Virus record (IMG/VR): IMGVR_UViG_3300027754_000128 | Coordinates: 1 to 52,458 of that record | Length of the DNA: 52,458 bases | Reading direction: 5' to 3' (one strand) | Source of the DNA: a virus | Shown: piece after piece, positions 14,399-43,748 of the stretch | Layout of the letters: each line of letters opens with the position of its first letter | Position numbering within the stretch: position 1 is the first letter of the stretch | The notes under the pieces: generated by a model | Databases searched by the model: none | Told to the model about the DNA's origin: nothing | The model's input: the letters and a program-made list of their open reading frames with translations, nothing else | Program-made: the position numbers and the translations under genes

Positions 14399-14612
14399 CC
14401 CGCCCATCCCGGTCGCCATCACGGCTAATAGTCTGCCGGCCGGCGTGACAGCCACCGACCGACGCGGCTGGTGCTACGCATGGGACCGATGCGGCATCGA
14501 CGGCCATCGCATCTGGGTTGTGGTGCTGGATGAGACAGGCGAAGTGGTCGACGTACCCCAGCCCGAGATCGTGGTCGATCCGAATTGGAGCTACGGTCGC
14601 CGTCTCAAGTAG
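14385..14612 (+). CDS. Small protein ending at late promoter box 1
   Basis: 75 residues (MHRLDPPIPVAITANSLPAG...). Beta-rich with GWCYAWDRC and RIWVVVLDETGEVVDV. Its last Lys codon and TAG stop are part of the AGTAGACGCCACC box of the first late promoter, so the operon border and promoter overlap. Overlaps the previous gene by 14 bases. Function unknown. Confidence 0.65.
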   Translation: MHRLDPPIPVAITANSLPAGVTATDRRGWCYAWDRCGIDGHRIWVVVLDETGEVVDVPQPEIVVDPNWSYGRRLK

Positions 14613-14651
14613 ACGCCACCTGCACTCGATTTGAACGACCGGCCTCATAAT
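14608..14651 (+). promoter_or_regulatory. Late promoter 1 (packaging genes)
   Basis: AGTAGACGCCACCT at 14608-14621 and CATAAT at 14646-14651, separated so that AGACGCC (14611) is 35 bp from the -10, as in the other three copies. No -35 hexamer. A GGGGA/TCCCC hairpin (14655-14670) lies just after the start point. Confidence 0.75.
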
Positions 14652-14680
14652 CGCGGGGAACTCAATCCCCGTGAGGACGT

Positions 14681-15172
14681 GTGGCGACCCTCAACCCTAA
14701 GCAAGCGCGATTCGTCGCGGAATATCTGATCGACAGCAACGCCACGCAGGCGGCGATCAGGGCTGGGTATAGCGCCAAGACCGCACAGCCAATCGGTTCG
14801 CGGCTGTTATCCAATGTTATGGTGGCCGCTGCCATCAAGGCGAAGCAGGGAACGATCCTTGACCGGCTTGGCATTTCGGCCGAGTCCGTCCTCGCTGAAG
14901 TGAAGGCGCTGGGCAAGGAAGCCCGCGAGATCGGCCAGCTTCCCGTGGCACTGCGCGCCCAGGAACTGCTGGGCAAGGCCTGCCGGCGCACCGAGGACGG
15001 CAACCCGTTCGCCGAGGCCATCGAAGTCAACACCACCGTGAAATCAGAGGACGAGCAGCCGGTGACGCTGCTGCAGCTCTCTCGCGAACTCGTCTTTGCC
15101 GTCCACCTCGGTCTGATCGAGGCGGCGAAGACCCCGACGTTGGAACCCTCCAACACTCCGCTCAAGCACTGA
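14681..15172 (+). CDS. terS: Terminase small subunit
   Basis: 163 residues. LNPKQARFVAEYLIDSNATQAAIRAGYSAKTAQPIGSRLL is the Terminase_2-type HTH (KQ..FV.EYL.D.NATQAAIRAGYS). This subunit binds the packaging start site and loads the large subunit. A helical middle and a loose C-terminus (EEA... TPLKH) follow. GTG start at 14681 with GAGG upstream; the TTA/ATG alternatives are not better. First gene of late promoter 1; the large subunit is separated from it by one unrelated gene. Confidence 0.88.
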   Translation: MATLNPKQARFVAEYLIDSNATQAAIRAGYSAKTAQPIGSRLLSNVMVAAAIKAKQGTILDRLGISAESVLAEVKALGKEAREIGQLPVALRAQELLGKACRRTEDGNPFAEAIEVNTTVKSEDEQPVTLLQLSRELVFAVHLGLIEAAKTPTLEPSNTPLKH

Positions 15173-15215
15173 CATCAAGCAATGGCGCAAGCCATATAAT
15201 CAGGAGACTAAGACC

Positions 15216-16034
15216 ATGCGTATCCTTTCCTCGGTCGACGGCCGCAAGCTCGGCACAGGCCCCAACTACCCCAGCACCAGCCTCTCGCCGACCATCTCGA
15301 CCGGCGGCGTCATCGTCGGCGACCACGGCTCGCAGTTCGCGATGCCCGGCCCGAATCATGTCGTCCTGTTCGATGACTTCGTCGGCCTCGATGGCGTCGC
15401 GCCTGCCGCTTCCGCCTGGAAGTTCTTGGAAGGCACCGACAGCGCGACCTCCGCTGAAGTCGTGTCGCCGGCCAATGGCGGCGTGCTGCTGATGACCACG
15501 GGCGATGCTGGCACAGGTGTAGCCGCTGACGCTTGCGCGGCTGTGAACGGCCTGCATTGGTTCGCCAGCAATGGCGGATTGACCTTCCAGACGCGCATCA
15601 AGCTGTCGGCGATCACGACCTGCACGGCGTTCGTCGGCTTCACCGACTTGGCTGCCACCCTCGAGCAGTCGATCCTGTTCGCGACCGGCACCACGTTCAC
15701 GACCAACGCCAGCGATGCCTGCGGATTCCTGTTCGATACCGTGTCGACCGCCGACACCTGGTACCTGACGGGCGTCGCCGCTGACACCGACGCGACGATG
15801 CAGAACACCGGCCTCGCTCCGGTCGCCGACACCTACGAGACGTTCCGTATCGAACTCTCGACCACTGGCGCCGCCACGTTCTACCGGAACGGCGTTCAGG
15901 TTGGCACGACGATGGCTGGCGCTGTCACCGCCACCACGGCCCTGACGCCGATCGTCTACGTCTCGAAGCTGTCGGTGGCAGCCTCGATGACGGCGAGCGT
16001 GGACTACATCCACACGTCGATGCTGCGCGCTTAA
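15216..16034 (+). CDS. LamG/lectin-like virion protein
   Basis: 272 residues. After an N-terminal arm with STGGVIVG and HVVLFDDFVG, the rest has the spacing of a concanavalin/LamG jelly-roll: LTFQTRIKLSAI, TAFVGFTD, GFLFDT, WYLTGVA, ETFRIELSTTGAATFYRNG, TMTASVDYIH. Likely a structural head or decoration protein with possible carbohydrate binding (inference). The start ATG has AGGAG at 15201-15205. It lies between the two terminase genes, an unusual place. Confidence 0.65.
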   Translation: MRILSSVDGRKLGTGPNYPSTSLSPTISTGGVIVGDHGSQFAMPGPNHVVLFDDFVGLDGVAPAASAWKFLEGTDSATSAEVVSPANGGVLLMTTGDAGTGVAADACAAVNGLHWFASNGGLTFQTRIKLSAITTCTAFVGFTDLAATLEQSILFATGTTFTTNASDACGFLFDTVSTADTWYLTGVAADTDATMQNTGLAPVADTYETFRIELSTTGAATFYRNGVQVGTTMAGAVTATTALTPIVYVSKLSVAASMTASVDYIHTSMLRA

Positions 16035-17656: not shown

Positions 17657-18083
17657 CAACGTGGCGGCTCTCATGCGTCATCTGCGGGCGACCGCGCGAG
17701 CGGGGCGTGCCTGCGACGCTGCGCGCGACATCGCCCTGTCGCTGGGCATCTCCGAGAAGGCGGTCAACACGGCGTTCGTCGCGGCCCGCAAGGCCAAGAT
17801 GATCCACTGGTCGACGCACTACTGCGGGCCAGGGGTCGGTCAACGTCGCTGGGTGACGCTGGTTGCCGATCGCCTGCAGACGGCCAAGCCGGTCAAGTTC
17901 GGCCGCGCCTACCTTCGCGCACAGGGTGACACGAGCGACCTCCAGAAGGCCAAGACGGCGCTGCAGAAGCGCGGCCACTACGTCTGGGACGCAGCCATTG
18001 ACGGCGGGCCTCTGGGCCTCGTCCGCGTCGACCAGCACCTGATGCTGCCGGCCGATGTCATCGCATTCGCAGGAGGCGTCTGA
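17649..18083 (+). CDS. HTH-like protein in packaging operon
   Basis: 144 residues. ACDAARDIALSLGISEKAVNTAFVAARKAKMIHW is a HTH arrangement, and the C-terminal region (VRVDQHLMLPADVIAF) resembles a small globular domain. It overlaps the terL end by 8 bases. It could be a regulator or a packaging accessory; no family recognised. Confidence 0.6.
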   Translation: MADNVAALMRHLRATARAGRACDAARDIALSLGISEKAVNTAFVAARKAKMIHWSTHYCGPGVGQRRWVTLVADRLQTAKPVKFGRAYLRAQGDTSDLQKAKTALQKRGHYVWDAAIDGGPLGLVRVDQHLMLPADVIAFAGGV

Positions 18084-18406
18084 TGGGTAGCATGTCTGGT
18101 GGCGGCGGAATGGCTCCAGCACCTGCTCCCGTGGCAGTCGCACCGGCTCCCGCGCCGATCGTTTGGCAGGGCGACGATCCGTTCGCGCCCAACTACAGGC
18201 CACCGACCGGCGCACAGCTATCGCCCGCTCAGAAGGCGGCTGAAGCGGCCAAGGCTGCTGCGGCTCGTCCCTTGGCGCCCGCTGAACCCATCGAATCTGA
18301 AGAGGACCGCCTGGTACGTCAGCGCCGATCGGCTCTGATCCTGGGTGGCGGCTTCGAGGGCTGGGGCGGCGGCGATCCAAGCCAGTATGCGCCGCAAGGC
18401 TATTAG
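18083..18406 (+). CDS. Low-complexity Pro/Ala protein, function unknown
   Basis: 107 residues. Begins MGSMSGGGG and has Ala-Pro runs (APAPAPVAVAPAPAPIV), then DDPFAPNYRPPTG, an Ala/Lys-rich helix and a Gly-rich end. Disordered by composition, possibly a virion linker or scaffold accessory. Start from a TGATG overlap. Similar Gly/Pro-rich small proteins precede the portal in T7-like phages. Confidence 0.6.
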   Translation: MGSMSGGGGMAPAPAPVAVAPAPAPIVWQGDDPFAPNYRPPTGAQLSPAQKAAEAAKAAAARPLAPAEPIESEEDRLVRQRRSALILGGGFEGWGGGDPSQYAPQGY

Positions 18407-18417
18407 GAGAGCGTAAC

Positions 18418-18636
18418 ATGGGTTCATTATTTGGCGGCGGCGGCGGTTCGTCCGCACCACCTCCCGCACCAATGCCTGTCATGCCCGAGCCTGCGAAGGT
18501 CGAGCCGCCCATCGTCATGCCGGTCAAAGACCCGGTGGCTGACACGCAGTACGCGATGAAGGAGCAGGTGCAGCGTCGCGCCGGCAAGACCTCGCGGTCC
18601 AACACCATCATTGGTGACAGCCTGGGCGACGGGTGA
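18418..18636 (+). CDS. Small podovirus-type protein upstream of portal
   Basis: 72 residues. Starts MGSLFGGGGGSSAPPPAP, has a Pro-rich arm, and ends with RRAGKTSRSNTIIGDSLGDG. The (G)xSxxxTIIGG-like ending preceding the portal gene is what I would expect in T7-like phages. Ribosome-binding site AGGAGAG at 18404-18411. Function unknown. Confidence 0.65.
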   Translation: MGSLFGGGGGSSAPPPAPMPVMPEPAKVEPPIVMPVKDPVADTQYAMKEQVQRRAGKTSRSNTIIGDSLGDG

Positions 18637-18734
18637 TGGGCGCGCTCTACCAGATCAGCTACGTCACTGAGGCAGAAGCCCTAGTCGCCCGCGCCGCCGC
18701 AGTTAATTCTTACTTGGCTGGAGCAGGCGCATGA
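18636..18734 (+). CDS. Tiny protein before portal
   Basis: 32 residues (MGALYQISYVTEAEALVARA...). TGATG overlap with the previous stop, and its own stop overlaps the portal ATG (ATGA), so coupling supports a genuine gene. Probably helical; function unknown. Composition changes to AT-rich towards its end. Confidence 0.5.
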   Translation: MGALYQISYVTEAEALVARAAAVNSYLAGAGA

Positions 18735-20921: not shown

Positions 20922-20928
20922 ACCCCCA

Positions 20929-21912
20929 ATGGCACTCGAACCCACAGCGGCCCCGGTCGATCCGGCCACCCCGCCACCCGTTCCAGCTTCCGCTACGCCT
21001 GCCACGCCTGCCGCACCCGCGGCACCGATCGTTCCACCCGGCCCCTCCGCGACAATTCCCGACGAGGGGCCACCCCCGACTGCAAATACCCCGCCTGCCG
21101 GCGACCCTCCCGCAGACCCTCCCGCGTCGACCTGGCGCGACGAGATGGCCGGCGGCGACGACAAGCTGCGGAAGATGCTCGACCGCTATGCCTCGCCCAA
21201 GGCGCTGGCAGAGGCGCAGCTTGCCGCGCGCGACCGCTTCGCCAAGGGACAGGTGCGCCAGCCCCTCAAGGAAGGCGCCACGCCCGAGGAACTGACGCAG
21301 TGGCGTGCCGACAACAACATCCCGGAGACCTTCGACAAGTACGACGTGAGCCTGCCGCAGGGCATGGTGATCGGCGAGGCTGACAAGCCTCTGGTCGAAG
21401 GCTTCCTCAAGACGGCGCACGACAACAACCTCCAGCCCGAGGCCGTCAAGACGGCGCTCAGTTGGTACTACGCCGAGCAGGGCCGCAGGGCCGAGGCACA
21501 GTTCGCCCAGGACGCGACCGGCAAGCAGGAGGTCGTGGCTGCACTCACCCAGGAGTACGGCGGCGACTACAAGCGATACGTCACCGCGGCCGACGATTAC
21601 TTCCGCGAGGCTGGTCCCGACCTGGGACCGTCGATCCTGCAGGCGCGCATGCCTGACGGGACGCTGGTCGGCGCCAATCCGCTGGCCGTGCGGTTCTTCA
21701 TCAACAAGGCACTGGAGGTCAATCCGTTGGCGACTGTGACACCGGCCGGCGGGCAGACGCCGATGGCGACGATCGAGGCCGAGCTCGCAGGCCTCAAGGC
21801 CGAGATGGGCGATCACAACGGCCCGTACTGGAAGGGGCCGATGGCGAACATCAAGCAGGCCCGCGTCGATGAGATCAACCGGATGATGGCAGGCGCCACC
21901 GCCCGCAAGTAG
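20929..21912 (+). CDS. Scaffolding protein
   Basis: 327 residues located directly upstream of the major capsid gene. It has a disordered Pro/Ala-rich N-terminus (about 1-65), then helical segments (ASTWRDEMAGGDDKLRKMLDRY, PKALAEAQLAARDRFAKG) and an acidic/charged C-terminal helix (AELAGLKAEMGDHNGPYWKG). This composition and place are typical of podovirus scaffolds. Its terminal Lys-stop is part of late promoter box 2. Confidence 0.75.
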   Translation: MALEPTAAPVDPATPPPVPASATPATPAAPAAPIVPPGPSATIPDEGPPPTANTPPAGDPPADPPASTWRDEMAGGDDKLRKMLDRYASPKALAEAQLAARDRFAKGQVRQPLKEGATPEELTQWRADNNIPETFDKYDVSLPQGMVIGEADKPLVEGFLKTAHDNNLQPEAVKTALSWYYAEQGRRAEAQFAQDATGKQEVVAALTQEYGGDYKRYVTAADDYFREAGPDLGPSILQARMPDGTLVGANPLAVRFFINKALEVNPLATVTPAGGQTPMATIEAELAGLKAEMGDHNGPYWKGPMANIKQARVDEINRMMAGATARK

Positions 21913-21951
21913 ACGCCACCTGACGGTGATTGCGAGGGGTCGCAGTAGAAT
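21908..21951 (+). promoter_or_regulatory. Late promoter 2 (capsid)
   Basis: AGTAGACGCCACCT at 21908-21921 and TAGAAT at 21946-21951, again 35 bp from AGACGCC to the -10. Start near 21958 gives a 115-base leader before the capsid gene. The leader contains a direct repeat GCCACCCCGAC at about 21999 and 22025. Confidence 0.75.
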
Positions 21952-22072
21952 ACTCACAACTTGCTGCGGCCCCATTGCGATCCAGGTCGGCGCTCTAAGA
22001 CGAGCCACCCCGACCAAGTAAGCGTGGCCACCCCGACAGAAGGGTCTTTCACCTTTCATCGGAGTACGTCAC

Positions 22073-22906
22073 ATGGCTGAATCAGCCTTTCAAACCAAAT
22101 ACCGGCAGGAGTTCATTGCCGGCTTCGAGGCTCGCCAGAGCCTGCTTCGCGGCGCCGTCACCACGGAAGCCAACGTCAACGGCTCGGCCGCCGTGTTCCT
22201 CGTTGCCGACTCGGGCTCCGCGAGCGCCACGACCCGTGGCCTCAACGGCTTGATCCCGGCACGCGCCGACAACCTGACGCAGTACACGGCGACGCTCGCC
22301 GAGTGGCACGATCTGGTTCGTCGCACGAGCTACAACCTCTATGCCTCGCAGAGCGACGGTCGCCGAATCATGCAGCAGACCACGATGGCCGTTCTCAATC
22401 GCAAGATCGACTACGACATCCAGGCCGCTCTCGAACTCGGCACGCAGGACACCGGCACGGCACAGACGGGCTCGCTCTCGCTCGTCATGTACGCGCTGAC
22501 GATCCTGGGCAACAACGCTGTCCCGCTCGACGGCGACATCACTGGCCTGATCAGCCCGGCGTTCTACGCCTACCTGATGCAGACCAAGGAGTTCGCTTCG
22601 GCCGACTTCACCGCCAACAAGATGTTCGACAAGTCGAACCCGACCACGTTCAAGTGGGCCGGCGTCAACTTCATCGTGCATCCGACGATCACCGGCAAGG
22701 CGACCTCGGCCGAGAAGTGCATCTTGTTCCACAAGAGCGCGATCGGCCACGCCATGGACATGGCCAGCATCCAGACCGCCGCCGACTACATGTCGGAGCA
22801 GGACTACTCGTGGGCGCGTGCGAGCGCGTACATGGGCTCCAAGCTCCTGCAGAACACCGGCATCGTGATTATGAACCACGACGGCTCCGGCTTCGCTGCC
22901 CAGTAA
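22073..22906 (+). CDS. Major capsid protein
   Basis: 277 residues placed after the scaffold and its own promoter. Features: N-terminal FQTKYRQEFIAGFEARQSLLRGAV, Ala/Thr-rich middle, DFTANKMF, then YMGSKLLQNTGIVIMNHDGS at the end. Size and layout match compact podovirus capsid proteins. A strong SD (CGGAG) precedes the ATG. The separate promoter and following partial terminator fit high expression. Confidence 0.82.
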   Translation: MAESAFQTKYRQEFIAGFEARQSLLRGAVTTEANVNGSAAVFLVADSGSASATTRGLNGLIPARADNLTQYTATLAEWHDLVRRTSYNLYASQSDGRRIMQQTTMAVLNRKIDYDIQAALELGTQDTGTAQTGSLSLVMYALTILGNNAVPLDGDITGLISPAFYAYLMQTKEFASADFTANKMFDKSNPTTFKWAGVNFIVHPTITGKATSAEKCILFHKSAIGHAMDMASIQTAADYMSEQDYSWARASAYMGSKLLQNTGIVIMNHDGSGFAAQ

Positions 22907-22912
22907 CCGATG

Positions 22913-22950
22913 AGCCTCGGCCTACGGGCCGGGGCTTCTTCTCTCTCTTC
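22913..22950 (+). terminator. Terminator after major capsid gene
   Basis: AGCCTCGGCC, loop TACG, GGCCGGGGCT (22913-22936, 10 pairs with one G-U), followed by the pyrimidine tract TCTTCTCTCTC. It probably reduces transcription after the capsid gene. Confidence 0.7.
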
Positions 22951-22967
22951 ATCGAAAGGATTCTCTC

Positions 22968-23335: not shown

Positions 23336-23351
23336 CACATCAGGAGACACC

Positions 23352-31978: not shown

Positions 31979-34900
31979 GCGGCCCCGACGAGCTCCAGCC
32001 CGCCGCTCCCGTTGACGACGGTCTGGCGCAACTGACGGCCGACCGCAATGCAGCCGATGTTCCGCCGCCGCCCACGCCGCCTGCCAGTGCGCCTGGCCCC
32101 GCCGTCACGAACGAGTACGATGCTCTTCTGGCAGAGGCGCCCGCGAAGCCGGTCAACGAATACGACGCCGTCGTGGAGGATCTGTCCCGCGAGCGCAAAC
32201 AGACTGTGCGCGGGAACCTCATTGGCGCGCAGGCGACCACGCCAGAAGCCGCCGCGAAGTCTCTCGACCTGTCGCGCAAGACCGGCCTGCCGGCTGACAT
32301 GGTCGAGCGAAACTTGCCCAAAGTCGAGGCCGATCACAGGCTGAACGAATACGACGCCATCCTCAACGCTTCGCCCAAGACGCAGACATGGATCGCGGGC
32401 GACCCGACGAACGCCAAGGTGGCGGGCGATGAGGTCAAGAGGTTGGCCGAGATCGAAGCCATCCTGAAGCCAAGGAACATGTACGACCGCAACAGGCCGA
32501 GCAAGGCCTCGCGCTCGATCGACAGCGAGTCGGCGGATTGGGAGGCGACGGCGTTCGGTCGTGCGGGCGGTATCGTCTATGATAACAAGGCGCCCGCCGC
32601 CGCTCCGCTCTACCAGTCGCAGTGGATGTCTGGCGTCGAGAATATGGCGCAGGGCTTCAACAAGATGTCGAACCTCAATATCGCCCGCGATATTCGGACG
32701 TTCGACGCGATCGACCAGGGTAAGCCTGTCAATACGGCTGATGATCCCTATGGCTACAAGGACATGTCGAGTGACCAGCGCGCCCAGACGCGCACGCTCG
32801 CCGAGGTCCAGATCGTCAAGAACGTCGCGGCTCTCAAGCGGTCGACCGCCTTCGTCGCCGATCTGCCGCGCAACCAGAACGTCCAGCCGTTCTTCGATGC
32901 CCTCGATGATGTGCAGGCCAAGGATATGCTTTCCGTTCTGACGGATGCTCTCGGCAAGATGTCGGCGGGGATGAATGGCGCCCCGCAGGCTGGCACTGCT
33001 GGCCCTTCGCCATTGGCCGCGGCCGGCAAGATATTCGCGTCCGATTCGCTGGGTATCATGCAGCAGCTTGCGGTGGAAACGACGCCCAACATGCTCCCGA
33101 TCATCGCGGGTTCGATCGTGGGTGGTCCTGTCGGCACTTTCCTGGCATCGCAAGCTGTCGATTTCCCGTCGCGAACCGACGACTGGATCAAGCAGGAACT
33201 GGCGAAGGAAAACAAGACCGGCGTCGAGTTCATTAATGTCAACGATCCCGAGGCCGTGCAGGCATATCTGCGCGCCAACCCCGCCTTCGCCGAGAAGGCG
33301 CAGAGGATGGGATATGCTGGATCATTCGGCCCGTCTGCTGTCGACGCCGTCTCGTTCGGAGCGACCCGCCCGTTCAAACGCGGCGCAGGTTTCGCCGCGA
33401 ATACCGGACGAGTGGCCGGCAACATCGCGATGGATACCGGCCTTGAAATGGTTGGTGAGGCCGCCGGGCAGATCATCAGCGGACAGGACGAGATCAAACT
33501 CAGTGAGATTGTCGCCGAGGGATTGGGCGCGTTCCCGCATGGCGCCTCCAATACCGTTGTCGCAACGGCGCGGGAAGCATCCCGCGCCAGTACCGAGGCC
33601 AAGACCGAGGCCGCCGTCAAGGAGATCAAGGCGACCATCACGGCCGCCAACGAGTTCCTGACCGACCTGCGGACGCACGTCGCGGAGACGGAGACGCTGA
33701 CGCTCGATGACCTTGTCGACAAGGTGCAGGGCAGCACCCTCCACAAGCTGTCGCCCGAGAAGATGAAGGACTTCCTCGAGTCGCTGTCTCCTGACGAGCA
33801 GAAGGCCGACGTGTTCATCTCGTCGGATGCGGTCAGCACGCTGTTCCAGGACATGTCGGTCCTGGAGCGCGATACGCTGGCCGAGAACCTCGGCATCACC
33901 GAGCAGCTCAATTCGCTGGGCCTCAACGCCAACACCGACATCGTGATCCCGCTGCCGGTCTACCTGACGGCGATCGGCGATGCTCACAAGGCGTGGCGCG
34001 ACGACGTTCGCATGGACTTCATGGGGTTCTCCAACCGGGAGGCCATTGCGGAGGGCAAGGCCAAGGCCGAGGAGACCGCCGCTGCGGTGGCGCGCTTCGA
34101 GGAGCAGGTCGCTGCCGGCGTGCAGGATAGCCCGCAGGAGATCGTCTACCAGCAGGTGTTGGGGATGCTGAAGGCGAACGGCTTCACCAATGAGCAGGCT
34201 TCCCAGCAGGCTGCCTATGCTGCCTCGCGCTACCATGCTCGTGCGGTTCGCAGCCCGCAGATGTTCACCGACGCCCTGGATGCGTTCACGCAGTACCCGT
34301 TCACCATCCGCTCGCACCTGGGCGACGGCATCCGGGTGATCGGCCCTGACCAGCTCGACATCATGCTCGACAGCATCCGGTCGGGCAAAGATCCGGTGAT
34401 CACGCCGGCCTTCGCCCACATCGAGGCGCGCAAAGCTGCGGCCGAGGCAGAGTTGTCGACGGTCCTCGGCGAGGCACCTGTCGTCAAGACGCCCAAGCAG
34501 ATCGCGGACGAACGCAAGGCTGCCGCGCTGGGCGTGTTCCAGGCTCGCCGTCAGGAACTGGCAGACTGGCTCGAGAGCCGCGGCCTCGACCTCAAGACGG
34601 CGACCAACGCGCAGATCCGCGCCGAGATCGAGAAGGTCCAGAAGGGGACCAGCTACAACCAAGACGATGTTCTGGTTGTTAAGCAGCCCCTTTCCGACAG
34701 TTTGATCATGGTCGCCCAGCGTGGCGATCGGGCGACTGGTAATCGGCTTCTCCTGTCTACTGAAGAGAAGGCGGCCATTGCCGCGTCTGTCGGGCCGAGC
34801 GGTCTATCGGTTGCAGAAATCACCGCGACCGTTCGCAAGCACAAACTGGCCCATCCGCCGGCACAGAACTGGGAGCCTCTGGTCTTCATCAAGGCCCGCC

Positions 34901-37900
34901 TCGACAAAAAGGGCAAGCCTGAGTTCATGTACAAGTTGGTTCCCTATAGCTTCATCAGGGACAACGACGGCAAAGAGATTCAGCCATCGGAGAAGAAATA
35001 CGCGGGCAGGGTCAAGGCGCTCGGCGACGCTATTGCGGAAGAGGTTCGTGGCATCTATCGCCGCGCCGCTGCTGGCGACAAGAACGCCCAGAACATCCTG
35101 GCCCAAGCCGGCTGGTACAAGGCAATGCGTGCCAGGCTGCGCCAAGAGTTCGGTGGCCTGGGTGACCTGTTTGCCGACGCTCTCGGAGCCACGTCGCCCA
35201 ATACGCCCGTGCGCGGGAACTGGGAGAATGCGGTCGACAGCTTGCGCCGCGCGAGCCGTGGTGACTTTGATGCACTGATGCCGCAGTGGGTAGCCTGGTC
35301 TGAGAATATCGACCGGCTCGAGACCGACCTCCGCGCGTTCGTAAACGAGCAGCGCGCCAAGAAGCAGGCCTCGAAGAGCGAGCCCTGGATGGACAGCGAT
35401 AAGCCGCAGACCTTGAAGTCCATCAAGGAGATGCAGGAATACATCGATAAGAGGAAGGCTCTGTCTGAGGCGCGTGAACTGCCGCCCGACCTCATGCCGA
35501 CCAAGGAGAGTGGCGCACAGTACGGGTTCAACGGTCGCAACGTGGTGCGCGCCATGCTCGACCTGTGGCGCACAATCAAGGACGCTGATCCCGATATCGG
35601 ACGTAGCGGCACTGCGCCCAAGGCGCTCAATTTCTCTGGCAACCTCATTGGGTTCCGGGGCAAGGCGACGATCGATGTCTGGGCCGCGCGCCTGCTGCAG
35701 CGTCTGGCCGGCAAGCGCCGCATACCCAGCATGGCAGAGATAGCCGTCTCCGGTGAGATGCTTGCTGATGCTTCGACAACGGGCCAGTTCGGCTTCGGGC
35801 AGGACACTTTCGCGCATGCCGTTGCCGTCATCAGATCCGACAGCGAGATGAGCCAGGACTCTGCTCTCGCAAAAATCAATGACGACGACCTACAGGCTGT
35901 TGTCTGGTTCATCGAGAAAGAGGTCTGGACGGTCAACAACTGGACAAGCGTCTCAGGGGAGGGAGGCTCGTTCGAGTTGGAAGCCAACCTCACCGGCACG
36001 GCCAAGCAGGCCCGTGTTCGCGAGCTGCGTAAGATCATCGACAGCTCCCCGTCCGCGGCCGATGTGAAGGCGGTGGCCGGCGCCGACGCAGTCTCGGCAA
36101 AGGTCGAGGCGTGGGATGCTGAACACAAAGCGGAACTCGATGAACTGGGAGAGATCAACCAGCGCCTCGCGTCGGATACCCTGTCGAAGAAGGAAGCATC
36201 CGGTCTAAAGAAGCGCGCGGCAGAACTGCAGAAGGCCACTAAGCTGCCGAAAGAAATCGCGCAGGAGATGCGCGACGTTGCCAACGGCCAGCGACGGATT
36301 GACGAGCGCGCTGCCCAGAAGGTGTTGGCGCGGGCGGAACTGGCAACCCTTGAGCGTCCCGTCGATCGCTACGTCGGCGGTCTGTCCACGCAGATGTCGA
36401 TCGACAACCAGGGGGTGGACTACGTCCCGACCGACGCCGACATGGCCCGCTTGGGTGATGCCATCCGGCTGGCGATCTACGAGAACGATGCCACTGCAAA
36501 CGTGCTGGCCTCCAAGGCCCTGCCGACCGAGGGCCGCTACGGCAGCGTGGAGCGTTCGCTCGACCTCGAGATTGTGGCTCGCGAGGGCTACGATCCCAGC
36601 ACGGTCTGGGCCGAGATGCTGCGCCAGGCGCAGGAAGCGCGGCAGGACTCGACCTTCCTCTCCCGCGTTCTGCGGGATGGCGAGGAGATCGATTACACCA
36701 AGCACCGGCCCGGCATTGAAATATACTTCCGCGATGCCGCCGCCGCCCAGCAGCTTGAGAAGATGTTGGCCGACCTGGCGAAGGAGGGGGTGTCCTTCCT
36801 GACGGTCTCTGTCGACGGGCGCCGGATGCCCGGTTATGTGGCCGGTGCCATGCCGGCAGCGGTCGGCGTGCGCCTGCAGTACGTCCCAGAGTTCGAGCAA
36901 AGGTACGGAATAGACGACCTTTCGGGCTTGGATGACGCGGCCATTGCGGATAAGATGAAGGCCAAAGGCGACGAACTGGACGACGTTGCGATGCGCGTCG
37001 CCACCAATGTTTCAGGCGTCTCGTTTGCTGGCGTTTTCTGGCATGAGACACAGGTGGCATTCAGCCATCAGTATCAGGAGAAGATCGATGGTCTCGCAAC
37101 TGGAAGAACTGAAGCGGAAGCTGGCGCGACTGGACCCGGAGGGTGGGTCGGACAATCCGTTCGTGCAGGGCTTGCGGATGCAGATCGCCAGTCGCGAGAA
37201 GCCGCGAGCGGAGAACCCGGTGGGCAACGAGAGCCGGTGGTCGGCGGGGATGAGGGCAGCACCGGACGCGCCGGAAAAGGCGTAACTCTCAACCAGTCCG
37301 TCTACCACGGCGGCCCGCGCATCTTCGACCGCTTCAGCCTCGACTATATTGGAACGGGAGAGGGCGCGCAGGCTTTCGGTTGGGGATTATACTTCGCGTC
37401 GAAGAAGGCTCTCGCGGCGCACTATCGCGACAAGCTATCTCCCGCTGGCCCCGGTGCCGTCGAGTATCAGGGCAAGATGGTCCTCACCTCGGACGGCAAG
37501 CCTCTTCGCGCGCGGCCCGAGTGGCTGAAGGATTGGGGCAACGATCTGCAGGCGCTGATCGAGGTTGCAGTCGACGGCAACATGACATTGCCGGAGGCCA
37601 TTGCCGAGGTCCGCGCCGCCGCTAAGCAGGTCGGGTTTATCCGTCGCTTTCTGGGCTACGGCTTTAACGAGCGGTTCCTGCAGGCGATCCTCGACAAGGG
37701 CTACACCATTGGCGACTCGCAGAAGGGCCGCCTCTACACCGTCGAGATCCCCGACGATGGCGCGTACCTGCTGTGGGACAAGCCGCTCAGTGAGCAGAGC
37801 AAGGTTCTTCGCGACGCACTGCCCGCACTGATCCAGAAATACGGCGGTGACCTCTCCAAGATCATTGGCGCCAACGGCCAACTGCGCGACAGCGTGACGG

Positions 37901-40900
37901 GCGAGTCCGTCTACCGCGCACTGTCGGCGGCTATGGCGAACAAGCCAATCGATGAAAGCGGCATGGCGGGCTGGACGCGGGTCCAGAATACCGTCAACGA
38001 CCGAATGGCGAACGACAAAGCCGCCTCCCTCGCCCTGCTTGCCGCAGGCATCCCCGGCATCAAGTACCTCGACGGCTCGTCGCGGCGGAAGGGCGATGGC
38101 GATCACAACTATGTGCTGTTCGATGACAGCCTCGCCAAGATCACGCAGTACGAGCAAGACAAACGCGGCTCGATCACGTTCGGCGATACGTCCGCCACGG
38201 TCGACCTCTACCAGGCCCGCAACCCGTCCACGCTGCTGCATGAGATGTGGCACAAGTGGTTCGGCGAGTTCGAGTTCGATGTCGCCCACCTCGGCGCCAG
38301 CGAGCAGATGCGGGCGGACTTCAAGGTGCTGCTCGACTTCGTCGGCTCGACGGACGGTCGCATTGGACTGAGCGCCTACGAGGGCGGGCGGGTGAATACA
38401 CTGCGCGCCAAGATCGACGCCACGGGCGAGAAGAGCCTCGACGGCGCGGAAGCCGAGGAGTGGGCCGCGCTGAAGGTCCGCATCGAGCAGAACGAGAAGC
38501 TGGCCCGTGCCGGCGAGGTCTACCTCATGGAGGGCAAGGCCCCGTCCGACGCCCTCCGCAAGGTGTTCCGCGCCTTCAAGTCGTGGCTGCTGGGCGTCTA
38601 CCGCAATATGCGGAATCTGCAGGCGCCGATCTCTCCCGAGGTCCGCGCGGTGTTGGACCGCATGCTGGCGACCGACGAGGAGATAGCCTCGCTGAACGAT
38701 CGGCAGGGGCTGAACCCCGTGCTGGAGTACGCCAAGGAACTGATGAGCAAAACTGAGTTCGCCGCCTACACGAAGAAGACCGCGGACGTACTCGAGGACC
38801 AGCAGGACGCACTGTTCGCCAAGGTATCGGGCGACCTCCGCAAGCAGGCCAAGGGCGAATACGTCAAGGAACGCGCCAAGATCCGGGGCGAGGTCACCGA
38901 CGAGATGATGGCGGAACCCGGCCAGCAGGCGCTGCACTTCCTAAAGAAGGGCGTCATGTCTGCCGGCGAGACGCCTGAGATACTGAAGGGCCGCAAGTTG
39001 TCCCGCGCCGGCCTGATAGAACTGATCGGGCAGGAGGGGCTGAACACGCTCCCGGCGGGCATCTATGCGGAAGAGGGGCTTTCCCCCGACGAGATGGCGC
39101 CGCTGTTCGGGCTGGGCAACGGCATGGAGTTGGCCGAGCGCCTGATGCAGATCGCCGCCGAGGACAAGGCGTGGAAGGACAAGGGCGGGCGCGGCACCGC
39201 CGTCCAGTCGCGGATCGCAGAGGAGACCCAGAGGCGGCTCACAGAGGCCCTGGGAGACCCGCTGAACGACGGCAGCATCGAAGCCGAGGCTTGGGCCATC
39301 GTCCACTCGGACAAGCGCCTGGACCTCATGGCAGTCGATCTGCGGATGCTTGCGCGCAAGGCCGGGCAGACCGGCGCGGTGAGCATCGTGGACATCCAGA
39401 ACTGGGCGGCCGAGCAGATCGGCGGCATGTCGTCGTATCAGGCGACACAGGTCGCGCGCTACCAGCGCGCCGAGCGGATGGCGGGCCAGCAGGTCCAGAA
39501 GGCCCTCGTGAAGGGCGACTGGGTGGCTGCGTTCAAGGCCAAGCAGGACCAGGTCTACAACTTCGCGCTCTACAAGGAGGCGATGAAGGCGTCCGACGAT
39601 GCTGGCAAGATCACGGCCTACCTCGACAAGCTGGCCGGCGCCCGCAACATCAAGGCCCTCGACCAGAACTATCTCGACTCCATCCACGGTCTCCTCGAGG
39701 AGTACGACTTCAAGAAGCGCAGCGGCACTCTGCTGACCGATCGCACCCGCTTCAACGCCTTGGTCGCGGAGCAGGCGTTGATGGGCGTCGAGGTGCAAGA
39801 GCCGCCTTACCTGAAGGGGGCCGAGCGCAAGCACTTCTCGCAGATGACGATGGATGAATTGCGCGCCGTCTACGAGGCAATCAAGCAGCTCGATCGCCTT
39901 GGCCGAGACATCAAGAAGGTGATGCTCGACGGCAAGAAGGTCGCGCGCGATGCTGTGCTGACCGAGATGGAGGCGACTGCTGCTGCCGGCGTGCAGCGCG
40001 GCTCCAGTCTCAGCAATCTCGGCAAGACCGAGATCCAGAAGAGCGTCGGCAAGGCCAAGCATATCTTGCGTCTGGGCAACGCCAGCCTGCTCAAGATCGA
40101 GCGGCTGCTGGAGTTCGCGGACGGCGATGTGACCGGCAACGGTATCTTTTCGCGCGCGATCTACCGGCCCATCGCCAACGCTGCCCACGCCACCAACGAT
40201 GAGCGCGTCGATAACAGCAAGCAGTACAAGGTGATCTACGAGAAGGTGCCGCTCGAGCAGCGCAATGCCTGGTCGACAATCCACACGCTTCCCGAGCTTG
40301 GCGGCAGGAAGCTCTCAAAAGAGAACATCATCTCGATAGCTCTCAACATGGGCAACGAATCGAACCTCGAGAAGCTGATCAAGGGCTATGGCTGGAGCTA
40401 CGAGGGTGTTCGCGCGGTCGTGAACAAGTACCTCACGAAGGAAGAGTGGAGGTTCGTTCAGGACAAGTGGGACTTGATGCAGTCTCGCTGGCCTGCCTAC
40501 GCCGCGATGATCCGCGACATCGAGGGCGTCGAACCTCCCAAGATCGAGGCCGTCCCTCTCGAGACACCGTTCGGAACGCTGCCCGGCGGCTACATGCCGG
40601 TCCAGTATGACCGCAACGAGAGCCTGGAAGCACAAAAGATCGGCGAGGCGCAGGACAGTGCGTTGCTGCAGGGCATGGCAATATCGCCCCGCGCCAATGT
40701 ACCGTCCACGAAATCTGGATCGTCCATCGAGCGCACCGGCTTCACTGGTCCCATCCTGCTGGAACTGAGTGTCATCGGTAAGCATCTGGACGAGGTCGCC
40801 CACGACACCCACCACCGTCGTGCCGTGGCGGACGTTTTCAAGATCATCTCAAACGACCGCTTCCGCAAGGCCATCCAGTCGCGGCTCGGCGTCGAGTACG

Positions 40901-42045
40901 AGGCAACCTTCATGCCGTGGTTGATCCGCGTGGCTAACGAGGCGCGCGTAGCCAACGTCGAGCTGGCCGGGCCTGACTACATGATGCGGGCGCTGCGGGT
41001 GAACGTGACGCAGATGGCGATGGGCCTGCGCGTCTCGACCATGGTGCAGCAGGTCGCGGGCTTTGCCGCATCGGCTGCGAATCTGGGCGCCAAGGATCTG
41101 GGCTCCGGCTTCTGGGAATACATCCAGAACCCCAAGGCCGCCGCTCGCGAGGTCTACGCGAAGTCGGGCGAGATGCGCCACCGCGCCAACAACCTCGAGC
41201 GCGACATCAAGGCCAACCTCGACAAGTTCCGCGGGAGTACCAAGAGGATCTCCCGCGCGCGGGACGACATCGGACGGTTTGCCTTCCGCGGCATCGCGCT
41301 GATGGACCTCGCGGTGTCGATCCCGACGTGGCTGGGCGCCTACAAGCAGGGCCTGACCAAGGGCATGCTCGAGGCTGATGCCATTGCCTACGCCGACAAG
41401 ATGGTGCGCGACACGCAGGGTGCCGGCGGCGTCAAGGATCTGTCGGCCTTCCAGGGTGGCGGCGGCGAGGGCTGGAAGCTCCTCGGCATGTTCTATTCGT
41501 TCCTCAACGTCTACTACAACGCGCAGGCCCGCATGCTCGAGGCCGCGCGCAAGCCCGGCAAGACCTTCTCCGAGCATGTCGACCTCTGGTGGATGGCGAC
41601 CATGTGGATGGCCGTGTCGCCGCTGTTGGCCGCCGCCGTGTCGGGGCAGGGACCGGACGACGACGAAGACCCGCTCTACTGGGCCATGCGGACGGTGGGC
41701 TTCGGCGCCTTTGCCGGCATCCCGGTCGTGCGCGATGCAATGAGTACGATGTCCCGCGAGATGGGCGGCAAGCCAACGGCCGGCTTCCAGATGTCTCCCG
41801 TGACCGGGCCGATCTCCGGGTCCACGCGCCTGGTGAAGGATTTGATCAACCTCGCGAGCGGCGAGGATGTCAGCAAGAACTTCACCAAGAACACCTTCAA
41901 CGTGATTGGCGGCTTCACCGGCCTGCCAACAGGGCAGATCGGCGTGACCTCGCAGTTCCTGTGGGACACGCTCTACTCCGGGGCAGAAAACCCCGAGAAC
42001 ATTCTGGAATGGCTCCGCGGCCTCACGTTCGGGCCCAAGAAGTAG
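31975..42045 (+). CDS. Giant polyvalent ejected virion protein (3356 aa)
   Basis: By far the largest gene, in the place of the largest internal core protein. Segments I can see: N-terminal repeats of NEYDA (residues ~43-125); a Gly/Ala hydrophobic region near 370-400; large helical regions; a central domain with WYKAMRARLRQEFGGLGDLF (~1045); an ADP-ribosyltransferase-like segment from VYHGGPRIFDRFSLD to AFGWGLYFASKKALA (Y1777/H1778); and a zinc-peptidase-like HEMWH at 2089-2093. The C-terminus has hydrophobic MFYSFLNVYYNAQ (~3172) and WWMATMWMAVSPLLAAAV. The gene is open without a stop throughout. The segment at about 1705-1770 has unlike codon use and contains a second frame (37088-37285). 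Confidence 0.85.
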   Translation: MSGPDELQPAAPVDDGLAQLTADRNAADVPPPPTPPASAPGPAVTNEYDALLAEAPAKPVNEYDAVVEDLSRERKQTVRGNLIGAQATTPEAAAKSLDLSRKTGLPADMVERNLPKVEADHRLNEYDAILNASPKTQTWIAGDPTNAKVAGDEVKRLAEIEAILKPRNMYDRNRPSKASRSIDSESADWEATAFGRAGGIVYDNKAPAAAPLYQSQWMSGVENMAQGFNKMSNLNIARDIRTFDAIDQGKPVNTADDPYGYKDMSSDQRAQTRTLAEVQIVKNVAALKRSTAFVADLPRNQNVQPFFDALDDVQAKDMLSVLTDALGKMSAGMNGAPQAGTAGPSPLAAAGKIFASDSLGIMQQLAVETTPNMLPIIAGSIVGGPVGTFLASQAVDFPSRTDDWIKQELAKENKTGVEFINVNDPEAVQAYLRANPAFAEKAQRMGYAGSFGPSAVDAVSFGATRPFKRGAGFAANTGRVAGNIAMDTGLEMVGEAAGQIISGQDEIKLSEIVAEGLGAFPHGASNTVVATAREASRASTEAKTEAAVKEIKATITAANEFLTDLRTHVAETETLTLDDLVDKVQGSTLHKLSPEKMKDFLESLSPDEQKADVFISSDAVSTLFQDMSVLERDTLAENLGITEQLNSLGLNANTDIVIPLPVYLTAIGDAHKAWRDDVRMDFMGFSNREAIAEGKAKAEETAAAVARFEEQVAAGVQDSPQEIVYQQVLGMLKANGFTNEQASQQAAYAASRYHARAVRSPQMFTDALDAFTQYPFTIRSHLGDGIRVIGPDQLDIMLDSIRSGKDPVITPAFAHIEARKAAAEAELSTVLGEAPVVKTPKQIADERKAAALGVFQARRQELADWLESRGLDLKTATNAQIRAEIEKVQKGTSYNQDDVLVVKQPLSDSLIMVAQRGDRATGNRLLLSTEEKAAIAASVGPSGLSVAEITATVRKHKLAHPPAQNWEPLVFIKARLDKKGKPEFMYKLVPYSFIRDNDGKEIQPSEKKYAGRVKALGDAIAEEVRGIYRRAAAGDKNAQNILAQAGWYKAMRARLRQEFGGLGDLFADALGATSPNTPVRGNWENAVDSLRRASRGDFDALMPQWVAWSENIDRLETDLRAFVNEQRAKKQASKSEPWMDSDKPQTLKSIKEMQEYIDKRKALSEARELPPDLMPTKESGAQYGFNGRNVVRAMLDLWRTIKDADPDIGRSGTAPKALNFSGNLIGFRGKATIDVWAARLLQRLAGKRRIPSMAEIAVSGEMLADASTTGQFGFGQDTFAHAVAVIRSDSEMSQDSALAKINDDDLQAVVWFIEKEVWTVNNWTSVSGEGGSFELEANLTGTAKQARVRELRKIIDSSPSAADVKAVAGADAVSAKVEAWDAEHKAELDELGEINQRLASDTLSKKEASGLKKRAAELQKATKLPKEIAQEMRDVANGQRRIDERAAQKVLARAELATLERPVDRYVGGLSTQMSIDNQGVDYVPTDADMARLGDAIRLAIYENDATANVLASKALPTEGRYGSVERSLDLEIVAREGYDPSTVWAEMLRQAQEARQDSTFLSRVLRDGEEIDYTKHRPGIEIYFRDAAAAQQLEKMLADLAKEGVSFLTVSVDGRRMPGYVAGAMPAAVGVRLQYVPEFEQRYGIDDLSGLDDAAIADKMKAKGDELDDVAMRVATNVSGVSFAGVFWHETQVAFSHQYQEKIDGLATGRTEAEAGATGPGGWVGQSVRAGLADADRQSREAASGEPGGQREPVVGGDEGSTGRAGKGVTLNQSVYHGGPRIFDRFSLDYIGTGEGAQAFGWGLYFASKKALAAHYRDKLSPAGPGAVEYQGKMVLTSDGKPLRARPEWLKDWGNDLQALIEVAVDGNMTLPEAIAEVRAAAKQVGFIRRFLGYGFNERFLQAILDKGYTIGDSQKGRLYTVEIPDDGAYLLWDKPLSEQSKVLRDALPALIQKYGGDLSKIIGANGQLRDSVTGESVYRALSAAMANKPIDESGMAGWTRVQNTVNDRMANDKAASLALLAAGIPGIKYLDGSSRRKGDGDHNYVLFDDSLAKITQYEQDKRGSITFGDTSATVDLYQARNPSTLLHEMWHKWFGEFEFDVAHLGASEQMRADFKVLLDFVGSTDGRIGLSAYEGGRVNTLRAKIDATGEKSLDGAEAEEWAALKVRIEQNEKLARAGEVYLMEGKAPSDALRKVFRAFKSWLLGVYRNMRNLQAPISPEVRAVLDRMLATDEEIASLNDRQGLNPVLEYAKELMSKTEFAAYTKKTADVLEDQQDALFAKVSGDLRKQAKGEYVKERAKIRGEVTDEMMAEPGQQALHFLKKGVMSAGETPEILKGRKLSRAGLIELIGQEGLNTLPAGIYAEEGLSPDEMAPLFGLGNGMELAERLMQIAAEDKAWKDKGGRGTAVQSRIAEETQRRLTEALGDPLNDGSIEAEAWAIVHSDKRLDLMAVDLRMLARKAGQTGAVSIVDIQNWAAEQIGGMSSYQATQVARYQRAERMAGQQVQKALVKGDWVAAFKAKQDQVYNFALYKEAMKASDDAGKITAYLDKLAGARNIKALDQNYLDSIHGLLEEYDFKKRSGTLLTDRTRFNALVAEQALMGVEVQEPPYLKGAERKHFSQMTMDELRAVYEAIKQLDRLGRDIKKVMLDGKKVARDAVLTEMEATAAAGVQRGSSLSNLGKTEIQKSVGKAKHILRLGNASLLKIERLLEFADGDVTGNGIFSRAIYRPIANAAHATNDERVDNSKQYKVIYEKVPLEQRNAWSTIHTLPELGGRKLSKENIISIALNMGNESNLEKLIKGYGWSYEGVRAVVNKYLTKEEWRFVQDKWDLMQSRWPAYAAMIRDIEGVEPPKIEAVPLETPFGTLPGGYMPVQYDRNESLEAQKIGEAQDSALLQGMAISPRANVPSTKSGSSIERTGFTGPILLELSVIGKHLDEVAHDTHHRRAVADVFKIISNDRFRKAIQSRLGVEYEATFMPWLIRVANEARVANVELAGPDYMMRALRVNVTQMAMGLRVSTMVQQVAGFAASAANLGAKDLGSGFWEYIQNPKAAAREVYAKSGEMRHRANNLERDIKANLDKFRGSTKRISRARDDIGRFAFRGIALMDLAVSIPTWLGAYKQGLTKGMLEADAIAYADKMVRDTQGAGGVKDLSAFQGGGGEGWKLLGMFYSFLNVYYNAQARMLEAARKPGKTFSEHVDLWWMATMWMAVSPLLAAAVSGQGPDDDEDPLYWAMRTVGFGAFAGIPVVRDAMSTMSREMGGKPTAGFQMSPVTGPISGSTRLVKDLINLASGEDVSKNFTKNTFNVIGGFTGLPTGQIGVTSQFLWDTLYSGAENPENILEWLRGLTFGPKK
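37088..37285 (+). CDS. Nested out-of-frame ORF inside the giant gene
   Basis: 65 residues in +1 relative to the giant frame: MVSQLEELKRKLARLDPEGG... FVQGLRMQIASREKPRAENP. It has AGGAG 7 bases before its ATG and about four fifths G/C in third positions by eye, versus about half for the host frame there. The host frame at this place is a low-complexity Gly/Ala/Glu linker. This looks like a true small gene overprinted or trapped by fusion of two larger genes. Confidence 0.5.
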   Translation: MVSQLEELKRKLARLDPEGGSDNPFVQGLRMQIASREKPRAENPVGNESRWSAGMRAAPDAPEKA

Positions 42046-42084
42046 ACGCCACGTCGCCGTCGATCGGTGATCGGCGGCTATAAT
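42041..42084 (+). promoter_or_regulatory. Late promoter 3 (tail fibre 1)
   Basis: AGTAGACGCCAC at 42041-42052 and a perfect TATAAT at 42079-42084, 35 bp from AGACGCC to the -10. Start near 42091, 15 bases before the ATG; the SD AGGAG (42095-42099) is just inside. The last Lys-stop of the giant gene is inside the box. Confidence 0.8.
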
Positions 42085-42105
42085 CGCTTTCTGTAGGAGT
42101 ACGCA

Positions 42106-43344
42106 ATGACATTAGACCGGCGCCTGGGCGTCTCTGGCGGCACCGCCTTGAAGGCACCGTGCCTAGTGGCGACGACGGCCAACATCACGCTGTCCGGTCT
42201 GCAGACGATCGACGGCGTGACCGTCGTTGCCGATGATCGTGTGCTGGTGAAGAACCAGACGACCGGCAGCGAGAACGGCATTTATCTGGCGAACACCTCG
42301 ACGTGGACGCGGGCGGTCGACTTCAACGGCACGCGCGACGCGGTACAAGGAACGCTGGTCCTGGTGATCTCAGGAACAGTCGGCGGAAATGCCCTGTTCC
42401 AACTGACGACGGCGACGCCGGTCATCGGCACCTCTAGCCTAACCTTCACGCCGTCGAGCGCGGGCGCGCTGTCGCTCGCTTCGACCTTCATGCTGACGGT
42501 GCTGGATGACACTACGGCGGCAGCGGCGCGGACCACGCTCGATGTGCCGAGCAATGCCGAGGCCATTCTGGATACAATCGTTGATGCCGCGGGCGATCTG
42601 ATCGTCGGCACGGCGGCCGATACTGTAGCCCGCCTTGCCAAGGGGACTGCCCTGCAGGTCTTGCGCGTCAATTCCGGCGCAACCGCGCTCGAATGGGCGG
42701 CGGCGCCGAACGCCACCGCGCCAACCTATCAGGTTCTCACCAGCGGGACGGCGGCTACATACACAACGCCAGCCGGCGTTCGCTATATCAGGGTCGTGTT
42801 CGTAGGCGGCGGCGGCGGTGGTGGCGGCGCTGGCGGCTCTACCGCACCGACTGGCGCAACGGGCGGCACGACATCGTTCAACTCGATCACGGCCATCGGC
42901 GGCTCTGGCGGTGTCGGATCAATCGGGACTACGGGTGCTGGTGGCATCGGCGGCACGGGTGGCGCTGGAACGGCTACTTGGCGCCTGCCGGGCGGCCCCG
43001 GCTCAACTGGTTCGGGAACGTTCGGCTACGTTCAGGGTGGCAATGGCGGCGTAGGCCCGTTTGGTGGGGCGTCTGGCACGGGCGTCAACGGGGGCGTCGG
43101 CGTTGCTGGACAGGCGAACACGGGAGCCGGTGGCTCGGGCACCGGCACCGCAGCCGCGACCAATGCTTCCGGTGGCGGCGGCGCTGGCGAGTACGTTGAA
43201 TTGATCATCGGCAGTCCTGCGGCGACCTACACCTACACGGTGGGGGCTGGTGGCGCGGGCGGCATTGGGACAGGGGCGTCGCCGCTGACCGGAGGCGCGG
43301 GTGGCAGCGGCATCATCGTTGTCGAAGAACACTACAACTTCTAG
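42106..43344 (+). CDS. Tail fibre / receptor-binding protein 1
   Basis: 412 residues. N-terminal 120 residues have the phage fibre repeat look: LVATTANITLSGLQTIDGVTVVADDRVLVKNQ, GIYLANTSTWTRAVDFNG. A short coiled region follows, then from about 210 a Gly-rich domain (VVFVGGGGGGGGAGG, GGIGGTGGAGTATW, YTYTVGAGGAGGIG) ending EEHYNF. Such Gly-rich tips are seen in fibres of aquatic and soil phages. The Gly domain is duplicated in the protein at 44296-44985. Confidence 0.8.
   Translation: MTLDRRLGVSGGTALKAPCLVATTANITLSGLQTIDGVTVVADDRVLVKNQTTGSENGIYLANTSTWTRAVDFNGTRDAVQGTLVLVISGTVGGNALFQLTTATPVIGTSSLTFTPSSAGALSLASTFMLTVLDDTTAAAARTTLDVPSNAEAILDTIVDAAGDLIVGTAADTVARLAKGTALQVLRVNSGATALEWAAAPNATAPTYQVLTSGTAATYTTPAGVRYIRVVFVGGGGGGGGAGGSTAPTGATGGTTSFNSITAIGGSGGVGSIGTTGAGGIGGTGGAGTATWRLPGGPGSTGSGTFGYVQGGNGGVGPFGGASGTGVNGGVGVAGQANTGAGGSGTGTAAATNASGGGGAGEYVELIIGSPAATYTYTVGAGGAGGIGTGASPLTGGAGGSGIIVVEEHYNF
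42738..43335 (+). repeat. Duplicated glycine-rich fibre domain, copy 1
   Basis: About 0.6 kb that is highly similar at DNA level to 44390-44980, with long identical stretches interrupted by scattered synonymous and a few non-synonymous changes. It encodes the C-terminal half of fibre 1. The pattern suggests duplication followed by partial gene conversion. Confidence 0.8.
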
Positions 43345-43353
43345 GAACCGAAC

Positions 43354-43665
43354 ATGATTAAAGTGATTGTTCGTAACAATGTGGTCGAAAACATCGGTGT
43401 CCCGAGCCCGAACGACGGGCCGCCTCCTGATGGGACTACCGTGCATGATTTCGACGGCCCTTGCTCCGTTAGGTGGTTGTGGAACGACGGAAGTCCTGTT
43501 GATCCGAATCCCCCGCCGTCGTCGCCGCCTTTCCCCGATCAATCCAACACGGACAATCATCAGCGTGCGATCAAGGCCGCCATGCTGGTCATGGCACAGT
43601 GGAACGGAAAGACGCCTGCACAAGCAAAGGCAGCGTTCAAGGCGGCCTACGACAGCCTGCCCTGA
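43354..43665 (+). CDS. Small fibre-associated protein
   Basis: 103 residues (MIKVIVRNNVVENIGVPSPN...). Beginning with a strand (KVIVRNN), then a Pro-rich arm (DPNPPPSSPPFPDQ) and a helical end (ALKAAMLVMAQWNGKTPAQAKAAF). It is just after fibre 1, so may be a fibre chaperone or tip accessory. No exact family known. Confidence 0.6.
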   Translation: MIKVIVRNNVVENIGVPSPNDGPPPDGTTVHDFDGPCSVRWLWNDGSPVDPNPPPSSPPFPDQSNTDNHQRAIKAAMLVMAQWNGKTPAQAKAAFKAAYDSLP

Positions 43666-43704
43666 AGTAGCGACCAGTAGGCCGTTCGACCGGGTGCGTC
43701 ATCC

Positions 43705-43748
43705 AGTAGACGCCACCTAACAGGAAACCGACCGAGCCAAGGTATCCT
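43705..43748 (+). promoter_or_regulatory. Late promoter 4 (second fibre operon)
   Basis: AGTAGACGCCACCT at 43705-43718 and TATCCT at 43743-43748, again 35 bp apart by the same measure. Start near 43755; SD GGGGAGAGG before the ATG at 43784. It is the only copy not overlapping a stop codon. Confidence 0.7.

Follow-up and report, generated by a model that had tools for sequence, protein, structure and literature searches.

How are the late genes of a phage turned on when their promoters lack a −35 element and share a single upstream box? This question is raised by the window, the whole stretch of DNA that was analysed, which is a 52.5-kb virus record. Its gene content points to a temperate phage of the podovirus type. 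In addition to the genes listed in Table 1, it carries genes for Erf, Orf/NinB, a C5 methylase, a DUF1376 protein, terminase, a tail protein, a 3356-aa polyvalent protein, and a portal protein of PHROG 332. The relatives of this phage are nearly all metagenomic, and a search of 50,697 phage records with its capsid protein gave one match, a distant one. Because a winged-helix (wHTH) protein of the window, which is discussed below, is also present in alphaproteobacterial genome bins, an alphaproteobacterial host is likely.

Table 1. Features of the window, and late-promoter boxes of related phages.
Feature	Coordinates	Strand	Sequence	Context
Repressor-like protein	5701-6246	−		
Winged-helix protein, 94 aa, proposed late activator	13481..13765	+		last part of rightward early operon
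Late box 1	14608..14621	+	AGTAGACGCCACCT	before terminase operon; holds Lys-TAG end of ORF 14385-14612
−10 hexamer, late promoter 1	14646..14651	+	CATAAT	
Small terminase subunit (TerS)	14681..15172	+		first gene of late operon 1; PHROG 51
Late box 2	21908..21921	+	AGTAGACGCCACCT	before major capsid gene; holds Lys-TAG end of ORF 20929-21912
−10 hexamer, late promoter 2	21946..21951	+	TAGAAT	
Conserved structured RNA leader of capsid mRNA	21954..22047	+		cmsearch E 4.6e-9, model R1; covariation
Major capsid protein	22073..22906	+		first gene of late operon 2; PHROG 3437
Late box 3	42041..42054	+	AGTAGACGCCACGT	before fibre-like gene; holds Lys-TAG end of 3356-aa gene
−10 hexamer, late promoter 3	42079..42084	+	TATAAT	
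Fibre-like protein	42106..43344	+		late operon 3; weak Gly-rich domain match; homologues behind boxes in G018 and G019
Late box 4	43705..43718	+	AGTAGACGCCACCT	intergenic, before second fibre/lysis operon
−10 hexamer, late promoter 4	43743..43748	+	TATCCT	
First gene of late operon 4	43784..44296	+		homologues behind boxes in G001 and G015
Integrase	49999-50985	−		
Box, G018/L163			AGTAAACGCCAGTT	before TerS
Box, G018/L163, two copies			AGTAATCGCCACAT	before fibre gene; before operon following fibre gene
Box, G019/L166			AGTAGAAGCCAAAT	before terminase operon
Box, G019/L166			AATAGAAGCCAAAG	23-bp spacing; before capsid
Box, G019/L166			AATAGAAGCCGCTT	before fibre gene
Box, G040/L127			AATAGACGCCACTT	before TerS
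Box, G040/L127			AATAGACGCCGCTT	before capsid
Box, L172			AGTAGAGACCGCAT	before TerS
Box, G015/L156			AGTAAGGACCAAAC	before terminase operon
Box, G015/L156			AATAGAGACCAAGT	before capsid operon
Box, G015/L156			AATAGAGACCAAAT	before 43784-type operon
Box, L138			AGTAAGGACCAGTT	before capsid
Box, L138			AGTAAGGACCAGAC	one gene earlier
Boxes, G001 (near-twin of the window)				before capsid, fibre and 43784-type genes

The box was confirmed in three exact copies and one copy with a single mismatch, all on the plus strand. At all four sites it is followed by a −10 hexamer after exactly 24 bp, which is the same fixed distance that the first-pass annotation had counted as 35 bp from AGACGCC. No TTGACA-like −35 hexamer is present at the four window promoters, and the genes served are the terminase, capsid, fibre-like and second fibre operon genes; both points agree with that annotation. 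The triple repeat of a 14-mer taken alone is only moderately unusual, as some 14-mer occurred three times in 6 of 100 third-order Markov shuffles and seven 14-mers are present three times in the window itself. With at most three mismatches, the box had 8 matches in the window versus 3.0 expected, and zero or one mismatch was reached by the four late-promoter boxes only. The coupling of the box to the −10 is far beyond chance: the mean match of the four boxes to TATAAT at offset 24 was 5.0 of 6, a value never attained in 20,000 random draws of four positions, whichever offset between 5 and 59 was taken. Good box-plus-−10 sites in the window are confined to the four late promoters.

Related loci were gathered by searches with the capsid, the terminase, o14385 (the ORF that ends in box 1) and the wHTH protein. 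The motif search in related phages, which had been proposed as a check, found a diverged box with its spacing and its place conserved and with phage-specific spellings. The box, the 24 bp and the −10 are kept in five further phages (G015/L156, G018/L163, G019/L166, G040/L127 and L172), diverged boxes are also carried by the capsid fragment L138, and the relatives' boxes stand before terminase, capsid or fibre genes. An alignment of 18 sites gave the consensus aARTARANRCCANNT, 24 bp, TATNNT. In this alignment the 15-bp box and the −10 are conserved with little conservation between them, box positions A1, T3, A4, C9 and C10 are invariant, and each genome has its own spelling at positions 5-9. 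The distance from box to −10 is 24 bp in 17 of the 18 sites and 23 bp in the other one, most of the relatives' sites having been first picked with a matrix that included the −10. A less biased test was a leave-one-genome-out scan scored on the box alone. The promoter boxes stood at or near the top of the list in nearly every genome; nearly all of these top-ranked boxes were followed by a −10, and the other high scorers were almost all without one. The G015 site at 18255 had a low box-only score and lay outside the top box-only matches. A regular box is missing before the capsid gene of L163, where another arrangement is apparently used. A scan of IMG/VR with the exact box returned 79 stretches, almost all unrelated, among which the close kin of the window were L041 and L071 (one contig) and L055.

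With −12 to −7 taken as the place of the −10 hexamer, the box extends from about −50 to about −37, close to the upstream activator position that the first-pass annotation had assigned to it. At class II promoters a single site near −41.5 adjoins the position of a poor −35 element, and the box, centred at about −43, appears to share this feature. The simplest reading is that a class II-type activator substitutes for the −35 contact. That box, spacing and place are all kept in diverged relatives supports the view of the box as an activator site at late promoters. We consider it probable that the boxes are the sites of one phage activator, most likely the wHTH protein 13481-13765, which would turn on the late operons via host polymerase. 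This protein would be expressed from the rightward early operon once induction has occurred, and its gene would occupy the place where lambdoid phages keep their late regulator. It would bind the boxes and switch on the terminase, capsid, fibre and second fibre/lysis operons, and late transcription would use host RNA polymerase. The box would lie directly upstream of the seat of σ region 4, and the bound protein would replace the missing −35 contact via σ region 4 and/or the α C-terminal domain, in the class II mode. The binding of the box by 13481-13765, its activating role and its touching of polymerase are steps that we infer. In box-less relatives, a strong −35/−10 promoter (at least 10 of 12 matches) was found at the corresponding place before the capsid leader, which is described below, in 12 of 73 cases; a promoter of this strength was found in 2 of 87 shuffled controls and in none of the 14 rows with a box, a set that includes several copies.

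The first-pass annotation had proposed that a phage HTH protein encoded at 11166, 13481, 13765 or 17649 might be the activator. This proposal holds for 13481, which fits the phyletic profile, and not for the other three. When the called window genes were compared by tblastn, 13481-13765 was the only non-virion gene common to all box-bearing phages. It was found in none of the 34 box-less relatives, either by tblastn or by a whole-record profile search, the box-less relatives having been scanned for boxes over 12-22 kb around terminase and capsid. Genes 11166 and 13765 were rejected because no other box-bearing phage has them, and gene 17649 because only one does. In both L163 and L172, the wHTH gene itself runs into the TerS box, with which its stop codon overlaps.

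AlphaFold2 predicted for the 94-aa protein a helix-helix-helix-strand-strand order with two wing strands (mean pLDDT 81.7), and the predicted wing is basic. In alignments its kin share CPtxxEixxWTGxxrrrxW...RGlIEiE...RRRxR..GGxWTxWT. The family is unnamed in Pfam, NCBIfam and PHROGs, and the window protein had no match in Pfam or NCBIfam at E≤1. Other members reached best E-values of 2e-4 to 6e-4 to HTH_Crp_2, MarR_2 and TrmB, with no match above the curated cut-off for the named wHTH families (MarR, TrmB, Crp-type HTH and GntR). A PDB fold search gave generic winged-helix matches only (best E 0.11), and no match to the wHTH protein was found in the 50,697 phage records. A single-sequence search found nothing; relatives were found by alignment-based searches. 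The spelling of the box does not visibly track the recognition helix, and the recognition-helix residue after the invariant Trp was rejected as specificity determinant, since it fails for L127. Taken together, the comparisons suggest that a small unnamed phage DNA-binding protein may read the box and so switch on the particle-building genes late in infection. The original observation of the shared box is thus confirmed, and the sequence evidence supports sharpening its interpretation to one candidate protein.

The boxes might also be activator sites for a different activator, either a host regulator or a phage protein without sequence relatives in other phages; this appears unlikely, but it deserves to be taken seriously. 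The portal tree places all box-bearing phages in one clade and the capsid tree requires two changes, so the co-occurrence of box and wHTH does not represent many independent events, and the two could have been co-inherited without a functional link. The link between them thus comes from one clade, and there are two kinds of wHTH phages without a visible box: none was found in the fragments scanned of L241/L242 (wHTH about 60% identity) or, in an out-of-sample test, of L306/L307 (wHTH 47%). However, no second non-virion window gene is common to the box-bearing phages, and the change of spelling from phage to phage, together with the confinement of box-plus-−10 sites to late promoters, favours a phage factor.

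A role of the boxes as operators for repression of the late promoters by the wHTH or by another protein, for example in the lysogen, is very unlikely. A binding site adjoining a promoter can also be an operator, and the integrase and repressor genes mark the phage as temperate, but the box is outside the core promoter, on its upstream side, no −35 element is present, and the wHTH gene is in the rightward (lytic) operon. The fixed spacing and the missing −35 would also be expected with a dedicated polymerase specificity factor; the box would then be recognized, as a distal element, by an alternative σ factor or a phage RNA polymerase. This can scarcely be the case, as 24 bp is too long for a −35/−10 pair (about 17 bp) and the −10 is σ70-like. 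In agreement with the first-pass annotation, which saw no phage RNA polymerase gene, neither a single-subunit RNA polymerase nor a σ family turned up in the scanned proteins. The 17649 protein gave a weak, sub-threshold match to σ region 4 (E 0.021), and its gene is missing from most box-bearing phages, a distribution that gives no support to a role as σ factor.

Equally hard to sustain is the idea that the 14-mer is a by-product of conserved Lys-stop gene ends without a promoter role, which the first-pass annotation had itself named as a possible refutation. As it had observed, three window boxes supply the Lys-TAG of the preceding gene and the fourth does not, and a TAG or TAA of the box ends the preceding gene at most sites; however, these ends belong to unrelated genes (o14385, the gene before capsid, the giant gene and the wHTH gene), no gene ends at two of the sites (box 4 and the site matching it in L071), and the fixed 24-bp distance to the −10 would be left unexplained. 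In phages without the wHTH, o14385 homologues end with TGA or TAA and without a box, mostly as GGGAGGCGC..TGA running into the next gene, whereas in the window, L166 and L127 o14385 is extended by a few residues, up to the TAG within the box. Thus the box supplies the stop codon and not the reverse; the coding artefact was rejected on this comparison, and the sequences already contradict the by-product reading.

An activator of the proposed kind, one phage protein acting with host polymerase at several late promoters, can be compared with known systems. Lambda CII and other class II-type activators adjoin σ region 4 at promoters with a poor −35. CII sites are direct repeats flanking the −35, whereas here one box lies wholly upstream of the −35 position. 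Mu C is a small phage activator for several late promoters; its protein type and its box differ from those described here. The temperate phage P2 has four late promoters sharing one motif, TGT-N12-ACA, which are served by one phage activator, the zinc-finger protein Ogr (Delta in P4) (PMC3931495). The window phage is likewise temperate, with four motif-sharing late promoters and one proposed phage activator, but its box is an asymmetric 14-mer and its candidate activator is a winged-helix protein. The CX2CX22CX4C zinc motif is absent from 13481, the wHTH alignment having a single invariant Cys, and TGT-N12-ACA is not conserved among the 18 aligned sites; the consensus given above stands upstream of the −10 instead. 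At T4 middle promoters, a MotA element tolerant of changes takes the place of the −35 and the host −10 is retained; the centre of the MotA box is at −30, its distance from the −10 is 12 ± 1 bp, and the protein acts together with AsiA-bound polymerase (PMC2988021). Here too a phage element would take over from the −35 and the −10 is kept, but the box is centred at about −43, and the spacing of 12 ± 1 bp was not seen at any of the 18 sites. The double-wing DNA-binding domain of MotA is a further difference. The system works like the strategies of P2 Ogr, T4 MotA and lambda CII, and no feature tested places it with Ogr or MotA.

The analysis also brought to light, as a by-product, a structured RNA leader upstream of the capsid gene. 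It is roughly 95 nt long, has two GG-NYA-CCCC motifs, and recurs at this place in a very diverse set of relatives, both those that carry the box and those that lack it. Transcription from promoter 2 is expected to begin near 21958, about the 5' end of the leader. In helix 48-52/77-81 of alignment A3, both sides changed in all five pairs. The covariation score of the helix, which supports the structure named by hand, was 0.217 versus 0.108 ± 0.012 for shuffled and 0.02-0.09 for slid alignments, a score favoured by the naming of the structure by hand after the same sequences had been viewed. A covariance model found the leader once per genome before capsid (E 4e-7 to 2e-9), several of the sequences searched or their near kin being in the model itself. 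RNAalifold gave almost no structure for the leader, and a comparison with Rfam gave no match. As a guess, the leader might serve translational or assembly-linked control of capsid synthesis.

The best reading of the late promoters is a new activator-and-box version of the known strategy of a phage activator plus host polymerase. To our knowledge, late-gene control is known for few phage types. The chances seem evenly balanced that the window represents a previously unrecognized family of small phage wHTH late activators, known so far from metagenomic phages of the podovirus type and from a few alphaproteobacterial bins only, which would act from the class II position through an asymmetric box that in many cases also provides the upstream stop codon and whose spelling drifts between phages. 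If this is true, the drifting spelling would reserve the late genes of each phage for its own activator. What is proposed here is a testable pair of regulator and box for environmental podovirus-type phages that are almost without sequenced isolates. The 94-aa protein, the 15-bp box and the −10 are small enough for reconstitution in vitro, and the phage-specific spellings provide a natural series for how an activator and its site change together.

Several of the late −10 elements that follow the late box, a 14-letter tag, have CAATCCC shortly downstream, both in the window and in the box-bearing related phages G015 and G019. CAATCCC may represent a 5′ end common to the transcripts. The location of the gene pair o14072/o14385 alternates among phages between a pre-terminase and a pre-capsid position, the latter being found at L166 and L127, loci of box-bearing phages, and the pair is also carried by phages of other types.

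Features and their positions
Feature	Sequence	Position	Remark
Structured RNA leader	window	21954-22047	before major capsid gene; conserved motifs, covarying hairpin
o14072/o14385	window	14072-14612	before terminase
CAATCCC	window	14652-14672, 43749-43760	after late −10 elements
CAATCCC	L295		directly downstream of box at 5373
CAATCCC	L298		directly downstream of box at 3070 (−)
TCATGTGTTCTCCA	window	173, 436, 51280	exact
TCATGTGTTCTCCA	window	51480, 52150	one mismatch
Giant gene	window	31975-42045	3356 aa; LPD22 domain
Winged-helix domains	L246	6336-7115	three in tandem

TCATGTGTTCTCCA occurs five times in the window, against an expectation of 0.01. Read on the minus strand (TGGAGAACACATGA), it comprises a ribosome-binding site and a stop/start overlap (ATGA), which are the same in five places in leftward genes. 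The giant gene product, which also gave a weak ART-PolyVal match, is likely to be an injected polyvalent protein. The triple winged-helix region of L246, a locus from a genome bin labeled Asaia, lies within a single reading frame, which adjoins a DUF1376-like gene.

Very diverse podovirus-type phages keep a structured RNA leader upstream of the major capsid gene; the capsid loci where it was found are, besides the window, L284, L085, L104, L185, and L208, together with roughly 85 more. The leader contains two copies of the motif GG-NYA-CCCC and a hairpin with covariation; some distant phages seem to have more than two copies of this motif. No match to the leader was obtained in an Rfam search. 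The leader is a candidate cis-regulatory RNA acting on capsid synthesis.
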